From IMG/VR virus record IMGVR_UViG_3300035670_000547, positions 1-39,905 of that record: 39,905 bases of DNA. One strand, written 5' to 3'. Below are positions 4,465-39,905 of this stretch, piece after piece; within the stretch, counting starts at the first letter, position 1, and every line of letters begins with the position of its first letter. The stretch comes from a virus. The notes below the pieces were generated by a model. That model was not told the DNA's origin, did not search any database, and saw nothing but the letters and a program-made list of their open reading frames with translations. Position numbers and translations under genes: made by a program.

Positions 4465-4770
4465 ATGGGCACACATGCCATCGTGAAAGATTTACAGATG
4501 AGCAAACTCGGCTGGTGGGATAACGCCCCATGCAAAGGCATGGACGGAAAGATATTCTTCCCTGAGATTGCTCGCGGTTACCAAGAAACAGACCCGTACA
4601 AGGAAGCCAAGAAGGTGTGTGGGTTCTGTAAGTATCGGAATCAGTGTTTCGAGTTGGCGATGGAGGCTGAGGTGCATGAGATTGTGCGCTTCGGTGTGTT
4701 CGGTGGACGCACACCACGCGAACGTCTCGCCATCCAAAGACTCCGCGACAAGGGGATAGAAAGCGAATAG
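4465..4770 (+). CDS. WhiB-family iron-sulfur transcriptional regulator
   Basis: 101 residues from ATG 4465 (SD AGAAGGGA seven to eight bases upstream; TTG 4462 is an alternative). Four cysteines at 23, 52, 55 and 61 give C-x28-C-x2-C-x5-C, with a longer first interval than most WhiB proteins. GVFGGRTPRER (about 77-87) is the WhiB signature turn and is followed by a basic C-terminus. WhiB proteins hold a [4Fe-4S] cluster, bind the principal sigma factor and modulate transcription. Phage WhiB proteins (for example in mycobacteriophage TM4) repress host whiB2-type control and can cause septation defects and superinfection exclusion. As last gene of the early operon it is well placed to redirect host transcription. 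Confidence 0.93.
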   Translation: MGTHAIVKDLQMSKLGWWDNAPCKGMDGKIFFPEIARGYQETDPYKEAKKVCGFCKYRNQCFELAMEAEVHEIVRFGVFGGRTPRERLAIQRLRDKGIESE

Positions 4771-4815
4771 CCCCGCTACGACCGAAGCGAAGGGGGGACT
4801 TCGGGAGCAGGGCTA
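4768..4815. terminator. Long hairpin between convergent operons (candidate bidirectional terminator)
   Basis: TAGCCCCGCT (4768-4777) pairs with AGCAGGGCTA (4806-4815) with one mismatch, and inside it CCGAAG (4782-4787) pairs with CTTCGG (4799-4804). It begins at the WhiB stop codon and ends 25 bases before the last leftward gene, exactly where two opposing operons meet. Neither side has a U-run, which is common for actinobacterial terminators but leaves the call uncertain. Confidence 0.5.
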
Positions 4816-6780: not shown

Positions 6781-7022
6781 TGCTGTCCCTCCTTGTTGTT
6801 AGTTGTACTGTATGACATCTGTTGGTTGTTGTCAAGGACTATCGCGGTGGACTGATGCCACGCCTCGCCCTCACCTGCGACGGGCTTCACCTTGTAGTCG
6901 AGGTTGCCGTACCGTTTCCGTGCGTCAAGGATGACGACAGAGAAACTGAGTGGTGTTCCTGCGACGTTGAGTGTTGCTGTCTTGCCGATGTTGGCGGACA
7001 GTTCTTGTGCTGTGGTTGTCAT
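6777..7022 (-). CDS. Hypothetical beta-rich protein
   Basis: 81 residues: TTTAQELSANIGKTATLNVAGTPLSFSVVILDARKRYG, then YKVKPVAGEGEAWHQSTAIVLD. It looks like a small beta-barrel with a G-K-x-x-x-L-x-x-x-G turn. The last 60 bases double as a promoter for the next gene, which explains the low-complexity C-terminus (NNQQMSYSTTNN). No family assigned. Confidence 0.57.
   Translation of the reverse strand: MTTTAQELSANIGKTATLNVAGTPLSFSVVILDARKRYGNLDYKVKPVAGEGEAWHQSTAIVLDNNQQMSYSTTNNKEGQQ
6807..6835 (-). promoter_or_regulatory. Sigma-70-type promoter TTGACA-N17-TACAGT
   Basis: On the minus strand TTGACA (6835-6830) is separated by exactly 17 bases from TACAGT (6812-6807). It is the best -35/-10 pair seen in the leftward operon. 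It lies within the 3' end of one gene and starts transcription about 20 bases before the ATG at 6780, so it would raise expression of the distal half of the operon. Confidence 0.65.
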
Positions 7023-7861: not shown

Positions 7862-8203
7862 TTAGTAACTGCGGAATAGGTGTCCGTCGGTTTCCCATAC
7901 CTCGCCTCCGCGCTCTAGGTCGTTGGCGTAGGCGTCGTAGTCGAAGTACTTACACTTGACCGCTTCGGGGTAGTTGTCGTCGGCTAGTTGTTCGGCATAT
8001 TCTTTGACCGTCATTTCCCCGATGTATGCCTCCTCGAAGTCTGAGAAGTGGTGCGCCCATTCGTCGGCGGTGAGTTGTGCGTCCTTCTTGTGGAAGTTGT
8101 CGAGGTACACCCCGAACGCCTCCATAGGGTCGCCTTCACCGTAGAAGTGTTCGATTAGGTACTCCTCGTAGGTGTAGGTCTGCTCTTGCTCTTGTGTTTC
8201 CAT
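7862..8203 (-). CDS. ArdA-like antirestriction protein (short form)
   Basis: 113 residues. The C-terminal 60 residues carry the ArdA signature: FSDFEEAYIGEMTVKEYAEQLADD, then KYFDYDAYANDLERGG and WETDGHLFRSY. ArdA proteins are elongated acidic DNA mimics that occupy the DNA slot of type I restriction-modification enzymes. Typical ArdA is about 165-180 residues in three domains. Here the N-terminal domain is absent or replaced by a Gln/Glu-rich start and a short YLDNFHKKDAQLTADEWA segment. Start ATG 8203 overlaps the previous stop; SD GGAGGGCAAGTA. Likely protects incoming phage DNA from host restriction. Confidence 0.78.
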   Translation of the reverse strand: METQEQEQTYTYEEYLIEHFYGEGDPMEAFGVYLDNFHKKDAQLTADEWAHHFSDFEEAYIGEMTVKEYAEQLADDNYPEAVKCKYFDYDAYANDLERGGEVWETDGHLFRSY

Positions 8204-8502
8204 TACTTGCCCTCCGTTGTAATTGTGTCGTGAATTACTGCCTCGCGCACCTTTTCGGGAACATCTAGCCATTTGATTCTGTAGTGACCGTTCTCGTATC
8301 GGTATCGGCTTGCGTCATAGTTGCTCATATCTGACCAGCCACTAAATGAAAGGCTCGCGTTTGTTCCTAGGTAGCCCACGCGCTCGTCGTCGAACTTGAC
8401 AAAAATTGTGTAAGCGTCTACGAACTTTGGATGGTGGAAGCAGTCCACGACATTGTCGGGTGCTCCTTCTCTCCATCGTTTCCCTGCTCTGCGTATTGCC
8501 AT
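8203..8502 (-). CDS. Hypothetical protein
   Basis: 99 residues. Basic N-terminus (MAIRRAGKRWREGAPDN), then HHPKFVDAYTIFVKFDDERVGYLGTNASLSFSGWSDMS and YRYENGHYRIKWLDVPEKVREAV. Mixed alpha/beta with aromatic strands; no family recognised. Starts with the repeated SD cassette (AAGGAGGGCAAGTAATG) and has its own promoter at 8543-8571. Confidence 0.58.
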   Translation of the reverse strand: MAIRRAGKRWREGAPDNVVDCFHHPKFVDAYTIFVKFDDERVGYLGTNASLSFSGWSDMSNYDASRYRYENGHYRIKWLDVPEKVREAVIHDTITTEGK

Positions 8503-8542
8503 TACTTGCCCTCCTTGTAGGTGATATGTCTAACTGTAATAC

Positions 8543-8571
8543 ACACTAGCGTGCGTATCGTCCCTAGTCAA
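8543..8571 (-). promoter_or_regulatory. Sigma-70-type promoter TTGACT-N17-TAGTGT overlapping a cloverleaf element
   Basis: Minus strand: TTGACT (8571-8566), 17-base spacer, TAGTGT (8548-8543). The -35 lies within the outer stem and first inner stem of cloverleaf element C, so folding or protein binding there would compete with RNA polymerase. Transcription would start near 8536 and read the gene at 8502. Confidence 0.55.
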
Positions 8572-8607
8572 GCCTCGACGCTTGTGCCACCCTACGGTGG
8601 GCTAGGG
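8562..8607 (-). repeat. Three-way-junction (cloverleaf) element C
   Basis: Plus-strand coordinates: outer stem CCCTAG 8562-8567 with CTAGGG 8602-8607; inner stem CAAGC 8569-8573 with GCTTG 8580-8584 (loop CTCGAC); inner stem CCACC 8587-8591 with GGTGG 8596-8600 (loop CTAC). The element fills the gap after the stop of the 40-residue gene. Same architecture as elements A, B and D, with different paired bases. Confidence 0.75.
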
Positions 8608-8615
8608 GTTCGGGG

Positions 8616-8738
8616 TTAGTGGGTTGCGCTGACCCATTCCCCAACTGGCATGTCCTCGAAACATTCCGCGCATAGCCCCTCTTGGATGTCGTCCTCAGGG
8701 TCTACCGTTCCGCATAGGTGGCACTTGTCGGGGTTCAT
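8616..8738 (-). CDS. 40-residue zinc-ribbon mini-protein
   Basis: Cys6-x2-Cys9 and Cys23-x2-Cys26 (DKCHLCGTVDPEDD ... GLCAECFEDM) form a complete zinc-ribbon-like four-cysteine set. The start overlaps the upstream stop by four bases. No close relative recognised. Too short for ordinary gene finders but well supported by overlap, cysteine spacing and position. Confidence 0.6.
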   Translation of the reverse strand: MNPDKCHLCGTVDPEDDIQEGLCAECFEDMPVGEWVSATH

Positions 8739-8971
8739 TTTGTGCCTGCCAGTTTGATGAGGTGCGACACCGTGACGTAGTTGCGCTCTGCCCTAAGGTA
8801 TCGCTGTCTCGTGGCTTCCGCTTCGACACTGTCCGCCCCGAATTTGTGGCTTGCCTCCCAGAACGCGCCCTCGGCTTTGTCTAACTCATTACCGAACGCG
8901 CGACGCATATCTCGCGCCTCGTCCTCGTTCATGATGGCGACATAGGTATCGCCGTTGCGTACTATCTCCAT
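8735..8971 (-). CDS. Hypothetical helical protein
   Basis: 78 residues from ATG 8971, directly after the SD cassette AAGGAGGGCAAGTA. Starts with a strand MEIVRNGDTYVAIMN, then one long charged helix EDEARDMRRAFGNELDKAEGAFWEASHK ... RYLRAERNYVTVSHLIKL. The extension upstream to 9109 runs through cloverleaf element D and is rejected. Function unknown. Confidence 0.6.
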   Translation of the reverse strand: MEIVRNGDTYVAIMNEDEARDMRRAFGNELDKAEGAFWEASHKFGADSVEAEATRQRYLRAERNYVTVSHLIKLAGTK

Positions 8972-9013
8972 TACTTGCCCTCCTTGTTGTTGTTGCGGAC
9001 TTGTGTCCGTCGT

Positions 9014-9057
9014 CCCCTGGTAGGTCGTGAACCTGCGCCGTCGATACGGGCTAGGGG
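9014..9057 (-). repeat. Three-way-junction (cloverleaf) element D
   Basis: Outer stem CCCCT 9014-9018 with AGGGG 9053-9057, extended by a G-T wobble and a G-C pair. Inner stem AGGT 9022-9025 with ACCT 9031-9034 (loop CGTGA). Inner stem CCGT 9038-9041 with ACGG 9046-9049 (loop CGAT). It lies between the 68-residue gene's stop and the next ribosome-binding site. The flank on the stop-codon side (AACCCC-A-CCCCTAGCCC on the minus strand) is shared with element C. Confidence 0.7.
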
Positions 9058-9065
9058 TATTGGGG

Positions 9066-9272
9066 TTATTTGGCGTGACCTCCGCAATCCGCGCACTTTG
9101 CGCCGTCACTTGACCAGCGTGGTGTCCATGACCAGCGGTAGCCTGTCTCGCCAGCCTCCCGTAGTCTTTGGTCTACGTTCGTGCCGTACTTGGGGTCATT
9201 CTGCCATCGTGAATCTCCGCAATCGTCGCAGATTACGACGTCCTCGTCGATATTGGCGATGTAGTAGGACAT
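9066..9272 (-). CDS. CxxC...CxxC zinc-ribbon-like protein
   Basis: 68 residues from ATG 9272. Cys15-x2-Cys18 and Cys60-x2-Cys63 flank a 41-residue insert (DVVICDDCGDSRW ... DGAKCADCGGHAK). Probably a single zinc site closed from both ends. No enzyme motif. SD GAGGAGGGCAAATA. The in-frame extension to 9383 overlaps the previous gene and is rejected. Confidence 0.62.
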   Translation of the reverse strand: MSYYIANIDEDVVICDDCGDSRWQNDPKYGTNVDQRLREAGETGYRWSWTPRWSSDGAKCADCGGHAK

Positions 9273-9484
9273 TATTTGCCCTCCTCGTTTAGATAAATTT
9301 CTACCCATTCGCCATCTGTCGGCAGATTCAGGGTCGCCTTTTCGTCGGCGGTGAAGATATCGGCGGTGGACTTGTGTCCCCATCCGTTCTCGTTATTCCA
9401 CCATTCGGACACCCAATAGTTGGGATGATTCGGGAACGCTAGAACGGGCGTCCCTTGTCGGTGAATTGTGTACGCTACTTTCAT
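9272..9484 (-). CDS. Hypothetical protein
   Basis: 70 residues. MKVAYTIHRQGTPVLAF, aromatic NYWVSEWWNNENGWGHKS, then IFTADEKATLNLPTDGEWVEIYLNEEG. Acidic C-terminus. Preceded by SD GCAAGGGG, AAC repeats and the promoter at 9518-9546. No family recognised. Confidence 0.57.
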   Translation of the reverse strand: MKVAYTIHRQGTPVLAFPNHPNYWVSEWWNNENGWGHKSTADIFTADEKATLNLPTDGEWVEIYLNEEGK

Positions 9485-9517
9485 TTTTTCCCCTTGCTGT
9501 TGTTGTTGGTATGTCTT

Positions 9518-9546
9518 ACTGTATCACAAGGCTATCACCTTGCTAG
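9518..9546 (-). promoter_or_regulatory. Extended -10 promoter TGA-TACAGT with adjoining palindrome
   Basis: Minus strand: TACAGT (9523-9518) preceded by TGA, giving an extended -10. The -35 at 17 bases (CTAGCA) is poor. An inverted repeat CAAGG-N6-CCTTG at 9527-9542 fills the spacer, so it could be an operator. Cloverleaf element A begins two bases further upstream. Drives the 70-residue gene at 9484. Confidence 0.5.
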
Positions 9547-9547
9547 T

Positions 9548-9587
9548 GCCTCGTCCGAATCGAATCGGCACGCCCAAGGCGCGAGGC
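9548..9587 (-). repeat. Three-way-junction (cloverleaf) element A
   Basis: Outer stem GCCTCG 9548-9553 with CGAGGC 9582-9587. Inner stem CCGA 9555-9558 with TCGG 9565-9568 (loop ATCGAA). Inner stem CGCC 9571-9574 with GGCG 9578-9581 (loop CAA). All 14 pairs are Watson-Crick and junction strands are one, two and zero bases. Located between the stop of the 61-residue gene and the promoter of the next. Confidence 0.78.
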
Positions 9588-9593
9588 GGGGGA

Positions 9594-9779
9594 TTACATT
9601 CCGAATCCGCAAGCCTCCACGAATCGGGCGCGGTCGAATCGTGGGCTCTCCTCCTCCATCATGTCCGCAAGTTTGCGGGTCATGGCGAACAATGCGGACT
9701 GTCCATCGACGCCGATATCTTTCTGCCCGCCTAATTCGCGGATGATATTGGCTATGGCTTGGTAGTGCTTTCTGGTCAT
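9594..9779 (-). CDS. Conserved actinophage-type small helical protein
   Basis: 61 residues: MTRKHYQAIANIIRELGG ... ALFAMTRKLADMMEEESPRFDRARFVEACGF. Short phage proteins starting M-T-R-K-x-Y-x-x-I-A and ending in F-D-x-x-R-F-x-x-A-C-G are frequent in actinophages; role unknown. Begins with the repeated SD cassette (AAGGAGGGCAAGACATG). Confidence 0.68.
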   Translation of the reverse strand: MTRKHYQAIANIIRELGGQKDIGVDGQSALFAMTRKLADMMEEESPRFDRARFVEACGFGM

Positions 9780-9818
9780 GTCTTGCCCTCCTTAGTGTTG
9801 TTGTGTCTTGCCTTGCGT

Positions 9819-9857
9819 CCCGTATCGCAATCGAATGCCACGCCCAAGGCGTACGGG
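9819..9857 (-). repeat. Three-way-junction (cloverleaf) element B
   Basis: Outer stem CCCGTA 9819-9824 with TACGGG 9852-9857. Inner stem GCA 9827-9829 with TGC 9836-9838 around the same ATCGAA loop as element A. Inner stem CGCC 9841-9844 with GGCG 9848-9851 (loop CAA, also identical to A). Four of six outer pairs and two inner pairs differ from A yet remain complementary. Confidence 0.77.
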
Positions 9858-9866
9858 GAACCCTTG

Positions 9867-10010
9867 CTACTTGACTTGGTCCAGCAGTTCTGCCATCGAC
9901 AGTAGCCAAGTGGCGTTAGCCTCATGGGTTCTGTCGTCGCCCGCGAGAGCGCGGAATCTTTCGGCGAGGCTTTCCGCCATCGCCACTGTCTGCCTATCTA
10001 CTGCGAACAT
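9867..10010 (-). CDS. First gene of leftward operon, hypothetical 47-residue helical protein
   Basis: MFAVDRQTVAMAESLAERFRALAGDD ... HEANATWLLSMAELLDQVK, all-helical in appearance. SD AAAGGGG seven bases before ATG 10010. The start codon lies inside an SOS-like palindrome and the SD lies in a switchable hairpin, so both transcription and translation of this gene look regulated. No family recognised. Confidence 0.6.
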   Translation of the reverse strand: MFAVDRQTVAMAESLAERFRALAGDDRTHEANATWLLSMAELLDQVK

Positions 10011-39729: not shown

Positions 39730-39905
39730 ATGAAGCGTTACCGCATATCCAAACCAACACACGGTGAAGCCGACTGGCTAGCCGTCCGATTCTGGGACGA
39801 ACAGAAACGCAAGCGTGTCTCTGCCTCAGCGGTCGCCGCAATCTACGGGCTACACCGATTCGTACCCACCGACCAATACGCCGCAGAACTGTTAGGTGAC
39901 ATACC
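39730..39905 (+). CDS. YqaJ-like exonuclease, 5' part (continues at base 1)
   Basis: First 58-59 residues of the exonuclease described at 1-872. ATG 39730 has SD GAAGGGAGC upstream. MKRYRISKPTHGEADWLAVRFW begins the protein; SASAVAAIYGL matches the conserved N-terminal region of YqaJ nucleases that binds the catalytic core. Truncated only by the contig end. Confidence 0.9.
   Translation, partial: MKRYRISKPTHGEADWLAVRFWDEQKRKRVSASAVAAIYGLHRFVPTDQYAAELLGDI
39812..39905. repeat. Direct repeat of contig start, copy 2
   Basis: Identical to bases 1-94. See the entry for copy 1. Confidence 0.93.

Follow-up and report, generated by a model that had tools for sequence, protein, structure and literature searches.

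The four intergenic elements analysed here belong to a large, previously uncatalogued RNA family that has no match in Rfam. Its members form a three-way junction, and the covariation for this fold is decisive, lying far above shuffled, slid and phylogeny-aware controls. Judging from its sequence and setting, the element probably marks the division of a long phage message into separate gene units. Our preferred reading, to which we give a probability of roughly 0.4, is that it would serve as an intercistronic punctuation and processing element, cut between the R and the C of an R-C-D-A flank, that divides the operon into translation units. The RNA family and its architecture are new, and the proposed functional kind, intercistronic processing, has precedents.

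The window is the whole stretch of DNA that was analysed, the 39,905-base IMG/VR virus record IMGVR_UViG_3300035670_000547. Its ends overlap by 94 bp, and thus it is probably a complete circular contig. It represents a tailed phage, with genes recognisable as terminase, portal, RecE-like exonuclease and single-strand annealing protein. BLASTN of the leftward operon or the structural region against cultured phages gave no match, and none is close in DNA. The best cultured matches to the large terminase were OX376640 and OX376641, at 26% identity. These are phages LanE43-AprE7 and AprF5 (E7 and F5), which were isolated on 'Ca. Planktophila' strain LanE-43 (PMC10202952). This terminase kinship makes an actinobacterial host likely for the window phage. 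The elements and genes of the leftward operon, in the direction of transcription, are as follows.

9867..10010, minus strand: first operon gene, 47 aa; stop codon 9 nt before element B
9819..9857, minus strand: element B, type 1 (three-way-junction scan; R1 29.3 bits); stems P1 CCCGTA/TACGGG, P2 CGCC/GGCG, P3 GCA/TGC; loop L1 TTG(G), joint J12 TG, loop L2 TTCGAT
9815..9818, minus strand: 3' flank of B of the R-C-D-A type, ACGC; proposed cut between R and C
9594..9779, minus strand: gene of 61 aa lying between B and A, with its stop codon 6 nt upstream of A
9548..9587, minus strand: element A, type 1 (junction scan; R1 66.4 bits, seed member); P1 GCCTCG/CGAGGC, P2 CGCC/GGCG, P3 CCGA/TCGG, L2 TTCGAT; interloop pair of L1 G 9574 with L2 C 9562 predicted from type-2 copies
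9544..9547, minus strand: R-C-D-A 3' flank of A, ACTA
9527..9542, minus strand: short hairpin after A, CAAGG-TGATAG-CCTTG, on the 5' side of the next unit
9066..9484, minus strand: pair of overlapping genes (70 and 68 aa) lying between A and C, with the stop codon 8 nt upstream of C
9014..9057, minus strand: element C, type 2 (junction scan; R2 67.6 bits, seed member); P1 CCCCTAG/CCAGGGG (one A.C mismatch), P2 CCGT/ACGG, J12 CGC, P3 AGGT/ACCT, L2 TCACG
9010..9013, minus strand: R-C-D-A 3' flank of C, ACGA
8996..9009, minus strand: short hairpin after C, CGGAC-ACAA-GTCCG
8616..8971, minus strand: pair of overlapping genes (78 aa and about 40 aa, the latter read from the sequence directly) lying between C and D, with the stop codon 8 nt upstream of D
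8562..8607, minus strand: element D, intermediate type (junction scan; R1 19.4 bits, R2 20.2 bits); P1 CCCTAG/CTAGGG, P2 CCACC/GGTGG, J12 CA, P3 CAAGC/GCTTG, L2 GTCGAG
8558..8561, minus strand: R-C-D-A 3' flank of D, ACGA
8540..8557, minus strand: short hairpin after D, TACGCAC-GCTA-GTGTGTA, with one G.U
8203..8502, minus strand: gene after D, heading a run of short-gap or overlapping genes without a further element

An earlier note on this DNA had described four such elements, and a mechanical junction scan recovers all four at the same positions. Its comparison of A with B, in which the loops are identical and two-sided changes have replaced four of the six outer pairs and two inner ones, was correct when re-read, and its statement that elsewhere in the leftward operon the gene junctions are short or the genes overlap agrees with the gene map. 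Two features can be added to its description: the outer stem is followed by R-C-D-A, which is nearly invariant, and an extra short hairpin is present downstream of A, C and D, whereas B is without it. After A and D there follows TACAGT, a likely -10 box in the window phage; some junctions may therefore carry promoters rather than processing sites. By eye, the 61-aa gene resembles the largest upstream-gene family, ending ..F(V/L)EACG...

In a scan of the 39.9-kb window for perfect three-way junctions, only five had 6 bp or more in the outer stem, three of them being elements; element C was represented by a 5-bp outer stem plus its A.C mismatch. The minimum-free-energy fold of the coding strand is the three-way junction for all four elements. 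The single-sequence energies are only modestly unusual (z of -3.1, -1.8, -1.2 and -0.3). As these energies are not decisive, the proof had to be comparative.

Relatives were gathered through the large terminase (68 loci) and with DNA patterns, a type-1 pattern for the A/B kind and a type-2 pattern for the C kind, both of which left helix P3 free. The type-1 pattern identified 91 stretches among 2.9 million viral contigs in IMG/VR (source contigs up to about 145 kb) and had no match in 257 Gb of bacterial and archaeal genomes (GTDB). The type-2 pattern identified 42 stretches in viral contigs, and a slightly wider version had two matches in GTDB genomes, neither of which forms a junction, leaving no real copy there. 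Covariance models gave 119 matches for type 1 (R1) and 68 for type 2 (R2). In total, 165 distinct copies or contexts were collected in 85 loci. The earlier note had let its case depend on further hits, and these came as dozens of homologous elements in relatives of the window phage. E7 carries three copies in a row (OX376640.1, 1387-1434, 1753-1794 and 2163-2208), with the same layout of stop codon, R-C and ribosome-binding site as elsewhere, and F5 carries at least two. One copy lies between ssb and a gene read as rusA-like in L305, a prophage-like contig with an isolate-style IMG identifier.

The cultured Gordonia, Microbacterium, Mycobacterium, Streptomyces and Arthrobacter phages that were tested gave no convincing match. 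Rfam 15 had no match above the gathering threshold in the window or in loci L263, L219, L280, L312 and L305, and at E<=10 it gave one chance match, away from the elements. The remark in the earlier note that no named family has this form thus holds against Rfam 15, and no description of the element was found among open-licence PMC papers. Two other approaches were set aside. With a loop-only pattern (ATCGAA..GCCCAAGGC), most of the matches were due to chance. Weak plus-strand R1 matches hinted that type 2 might be an inverted type 1; this was rejected because the R-C flank, the J31 A and the L2 UCR align in the sense orientation.

Because the search patterns left P3 free, pairing in this helix is covariation free of selection bias. 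Every one of the 49 distinct type-1 cores forms P3, for which about 13 different stems are used, and at least three of its four pairs are formed in 24 of 24 type-2 cores. Of the cells in the type-1 alignment (97 distinct rows), 99.9% are paired, and changes on both sides number 312, versus 79 in shuffles; slid controls of the same alignment were 15-49% paired. Since this alignment had been fitted to the structure, an R-scape-like, phylogeny-aware test was added, in which substitutions were redistributed on the tree. Seven of the nine variable type-1 pairs and six type-2 pairs were significant, so that in this approximate form the test found in both types the significant pairs whose absence the earlier note had named as grounds against it. 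No significant pair contradicts the fold, the others being neighbours within P3 or inside L1. Columns 18 and 21 of type-1 L1 covary, which leaves a two-base loop and an invariant unpaired G. About a dozen unpaired positions are conserved (the L1 G, J12 UG, L2 UUCRAU, the J31 A and the 3' RC), and the loop bases are kept while the stems vary.

A contact between the two loops was hypothesised before it was tested, as L1 ends in G and L2 carries U-C-R, like the tRNA elbow. In the aligned type-2 copies (n=53), the interloop pair is G-C in 50 and A-U in 3, with no mismatch. A scan left free at both positions gave 23 real junctions, of which 19 were G-C, four were A-U and none was mismatched. The change implies two to three independent events; with three, the same leaf set would arise by chance with a probability of about 5e-6. 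As far as sequence can tell, this Watson-Crick pair of type 2 resembles G19-C56 of the tRNA elbow. It is testable in type 2 only, because the L2 C never varies in type 1: type-1 copies with a changed L2 C were predicted and searched for, and 0 were found versus 91 (the sole L2-variant match, L328, is not a junction). Both bases are invariant in type 1, and there we infer the pair.

The conserved unpaired positions, together with the multi-copy intergenic location, would also suit a small self-cleaving ribozyme of a new kind, its active site being made up of the conserved loops and R-C, and some phage ribozymes are indeed multi-copy and intergenic. We consider such a ribozyme very unlikely. The junction core is very small, only a P3 that folds back would bring the docked loops, which otherwise lie at the opposite end, near R-C, and no Rfam ribozyme matched.

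The element is about 40-46 nt long and has a regular order: stop codon, P1 (6-8 bp), P2/L1, J12 (U-G/A or C-R-N), P3/L2, an A, P1' and a single-stranded R-C-D-A, after which there is usually a short hairpin, then an A/C-rich linker, a strong ribosome-binding site and a start codon. Nearly all copies are flanked by genes on both sides and lie on the coding strand. The stop codon is mostly 5-13 nt upstream of the junction (mode 7), and the next start is mostly 42-59 nt downstream (mode about 47). In the flank, the C at +2 is invariant in 163 of 163 copies and preceded by R, and +3 is never C. The bases at -1 and +1 could pair with each other in hardly any copy. One further copy whose junction is real, L341, is followed by TT instead of RC. 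Downstream stems of at least 5 bp are present in 65 of 145 distinct stretches, versus about 5 expected from shuffles.

The gaps that bear an element peak at 90-100 nt, whereas the element-free gaps of the same operons are mostly overlaps. Thus, the elements separate units of one or a few coupled genes. The genes beside them belong to 76 upstream and 83 downstream families in 127 combinations, the largest families being small proteins without evident function, and the identity of an element tracks neither neighbour strongly. That the neighbours vary so freely favours a generic mark over a gene-specific switch; a gene-specific riboswitch is unlikely given 127 gene-pair combinations.

A spacing of about 7 nt from the stop codon is typical of stimulators of readthrough or frameshifting, and the element shares this spacing. 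It is almost certainly not such a stimulator, as stop-to-start distances fall into each of the three frames (63/50/45), and none of these tends to be open across the element more than the others.

Selection acts on the sense RNA, as indicated by the coding-strand G.U bias, the gene orientation and the fixed spacing to stop and start codons. Read on the coding strand, the non-Watson-Crick pairs of type 1 are 14 G.U and 0 A.C (an A.C is a G.T on the other strand), and those of type 2 are G.U to A.C 15:6. The earlier note had offered either an RNA or a DNA site for cassette exchange; strand, G.U bias and position uphold the RNA part, and the same facts speak against the DNA part. In its fullest form the DNA reading would make the element a folded single-stranded recombination site, similar to attC, at the 3' end of mobile gene cassettes. 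Such a site would agree with the very mosaic gene order of the arrays, in which each gene or gene pair has a single element on the 3' side of its stop codon. As in integron attC sites, the structure lies 3' of each arrayed gene, and the stems vary while key unpaired bases are kept. Unlike attC, the element is selected as coding-strand RNA, and no core boxes (RYYYAAC/GTTRRRY) are seen in its alignments by inspection. With type-1 departures that are G.U and never A.C on the coding strand, constant gene orientation and an identity that follows neither neighbour strongly, this reading is highly improbable.

The location immediately after stop codons could also suit a partial terminator or pause element without a U-tract, which would grade expression along the operon, and actinobacterial terminators can be without a strong U-tract. 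This is quite unlikely for several reasons. First, a U-run is nearly absent, TTTT occurring within 45 nt downstream in two of 164 stretches, and a terminator scan found none at the elements. An intrinsic terminator with a U-tract is thereby excluded, and the attenuation proposed in the earlier note is not supported in so far as it meant intrinsic termination. Secondly, nearly all copies have a co-directional downstream gene and are thus intergenic rather than at operon ends; the window operon ends with a different stem-loop, at about 4770-4788. Third, termination needs neither conserved loops nor an interloop pair.

The intercistronic processing that we favour would proceed as follows, the cut, the enzyme and the effect on stability being the steps that we infer. 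A compact cis-acting RNA folds into the three-way junction about 7 nt after the stop codon, and its two hairpin loops would dock through one interloop Watson-Crick pair, as the D-loop and T-loop of tRNA do. With the loops docked in this elbow-like manner, P1 would act much as an acceptor stem does, its length being nearly constant and its -1/+1 end unpaired. A host endonuclease would then cut the linker after P1, the simplest position being between R and C. This would leave the upstream unit with the junction as its 3' end, blunt and resistant to exonucleases, right after the stop codon, and the downstream unit would begin with its own 5' hairpin. In this way, genes or coupled pairs would become messages that are separately stable and separately translated.

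One candidate for the cutter is actinobacterial-type RNase E, whose cuts lie 5' of C. The main alternative to it is a tRNA-processing enzyme that would read the tRNA-like fold. The cut is placed at R|C because the R-C at the base of P1 is the sharpest signal, beside a hairpin, and because RNase E cuts 5' of C. In mycobacteria, RNase E cleaves single-stranded RNA directly on the 5' side of a cytidine, with the motif RN|CNU (PMC10641625). Several points do not sit easily with this processing reading. For RNase E the R-C-D-A linker is rather short, the published motif has an R at -2 that is not constant here, and the real junction of L341 has TT in place of RC. Some copies, including B, have no clear downstream hairpin, so a 5' hairpin cap for the next unit would not be obligatory. 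Simple hairpins could protect a 3' end, yet the loops are conserved, which suggests recognition more specific than that of a generic nuclease.

Specific recognition without any cleavage is the main alternative overall. The elbow-like docked loops would be bound by a protein of the phage or the host, or else by the ribosome or translation factors. The binding would act on the ribosome that ends translation about 7 nt upstream and would block or control re-initiation and coupling to the following gene. Conserved loops with varying stems are expected for a recognised fold, the 5-13 nt stop spacing sets P1 at the mRNA entry edge of the ribosome, and the tRNA elbow is a general recognition surface (PMC4810234). 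We regard binding of this kind as somewhat unlikely, as it leaves the invariant R-C after P1 and the frequent second hairpin unexplained.

The likeness to tRNA bears on the enzyme. The element and the tRNA elbow have in common two hairpin loops, an interloop Watson-Crick pair, at the level of sequence a UUCRA loop (type 1), and an acceptor-like stem followed by R-C. Unlike tRNA, the element has no anticodon arm, its acceptor/T stack is shorter and interrupted, and it has D for C at position 75. By sequence, the likeness to a T-loop, which is UUCRA with a U54-A58 pair, consists of UUCRA in the main type-1 L2 group and a 7-nt UUCGAGA in one E7 copy. CCA is an anti-determinant of RNase Z. The element may be seen as a miniature tRNA-like molecule that RNase P, RNase Z or both would excise or nick. 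In it, P1 would stand for the acceptor stem, P3/L2 for the T arm, P2/L1 for the D arm and R-C for the discriminator and C74. This mapping is consistent with the type-1 L2, whose UUCRA(U) matches a T-loop consensus, with the covarying interloop G-C pair, with the 14-16 nt from the L2 C to the end of P1 (alignment count) versus 16 in tRNA (C56 to 72), and with an unpaired -1/+1, a kept R73-C74 and a +3 without C. It is nevertheless unlikely. P1 and P3 together make 9-12 bp, interrupted by an A, and not a constant 12; -1 is C or A and not the usual U; the 5' side is conserved in part only; the type-2 L2 loops are UCRYG and not canonical T-loops; and ARAGORN and Rfam give no tRNA signal.

A broader form of the idea is speculative and rather unlikely. 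In it, the element would be an elbow-only, anticodon-less tRNA mimic serving phage operons as a universal punctuation mark, and host tRNA-processing or degradosome enzymes that read its fold would cut every message into separate units, as a counterpart in phages to mitochondrial tRNA punctuation. Mitochondrial punctuation by RNase P and RNase Z likewise has structured RNAs between cistrons, which parallel the proposed cut-site marks; however, the elements here are not tRNAs, and both cut and enzyme are only proposed. The intercistronic RNase III sites of phage T7 lie between early genes and leave 3' structure. They are processing elements between phage genes, as is proposed for the element, but they are long irregular hairpins, whereas P1-P3 of the element are 3-8 bp and too short for RNase III.

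Of the elements described so far, the closest are the start-associated and extended start-associated sequences (SAS/ESAS) of cluster K mycobacteriophages and cluster EF Microbacterium phages. These, of unknown function, are similar in being actinobacteriophage intergenic repeats with many copies per genome (PMC3203893, PMC7302621). ESAS is a 17-bp imperfect inverted repeat, or a weak motif around GTAGAG, tied to a conserved ribosome-binding-site motif (PMC3203893, PMC7302621), whereas the junction element is tied to the stop codon. Identity with SAS/ESAS was rejected, as R2 finds nothing in AnnaSerena, Hyperion or Adephagia, and the one site examined in AnnaSerena appears to be a plain stem and not a junction.

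The finding adds a structured RNA family with unusually strong comparative evidence and several copies per genome. Its carriers are uncultured freshwater-type phages, and the only cultured relatives found infect 'Ca. Planktophila' (order 'Ca. Nanopelagicales'), which is among the most abundant bacteria of fresh water and is abundant in lakes. The isolated phages E7 and F5 carry copies, so the question is testable in culture. The processing reading offers a simple rule by which dense phage operons of tiny genes would be divided into expression units. If the tRNA-elbow reading is true, the element would represent a natural tRNA mimic reduced to a minimum, and it would provide RNase E, P or Z with a clean substrate.

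The only clear exception to the R-C flank rule, which concerns the near-invariant bases right after the outer stem (P1) of the element, is found at L341:1802-1828, where the junction is structurally good and is followed by TT in place of R-C. Hairpins were also observed on either side of the elements. In one lineage, a hairpin of the GTGAG-GTAA-CTCAC type lies directly 5' of the junction, with the stop codon in or beside it:

L280, L282, L287, L288, L292 and L298: hairpin immediately 5' of type-2 elements (the element C kind)
L312:1387-1434: hairpin also at this copy in E7, an isolated phage of 'Ca. Planktophila' (OX376640.1)

Downstream of the elements, in L263 and similar loci, the ribosome-binding site directly 5' of the start codon forms part of a small hairpin of the form (x)CCT-GAGG-AGG(x'). 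This hairpin was identified 27 times, its stem measuring 4-6 bp, and its outer pairs covary (AAGCCT/AGGCAC, AGACCT/AGGTCA and ATACCT/AGGTAT).

Several features were noted in the window itself:

1-94 and 39812-39905: contig ends that overlap exactly over 94 bp
4760-4815: between the convergent operons, an imperfect three-part stem-loop unlike intergenic elements A-D
6807-6835, minus strand: promoter-like TTGACA-17-TACAGT within the leftward operon

The terminal overlap indicates that the contig is probably a complete genome, either circular or terminally redundant, and the stem-loop is probably an operon-end terminator. Promoter-like matches in the window were not in excess when scanned against shuffles. 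TACAGT is present 3' of elements A and D and also ahead of the first gene; thus, it may be the usual -10 box of this phage, and internal promoters may be present in some of the gaps that hold an element.

Lastly, L192, L208, L222, L242, L246, L258 and L267 have equal model scores and share an alignment row, which suggests that they carry the same type-1 (A/B kind) element (GCCTAGCGCGTTCGG...). These contigs range from ~27 to 145 kb, which points either to a recent transfer of the element among phages whose genomes differ greatly in size or to contigs that are pieces of a single phage group.
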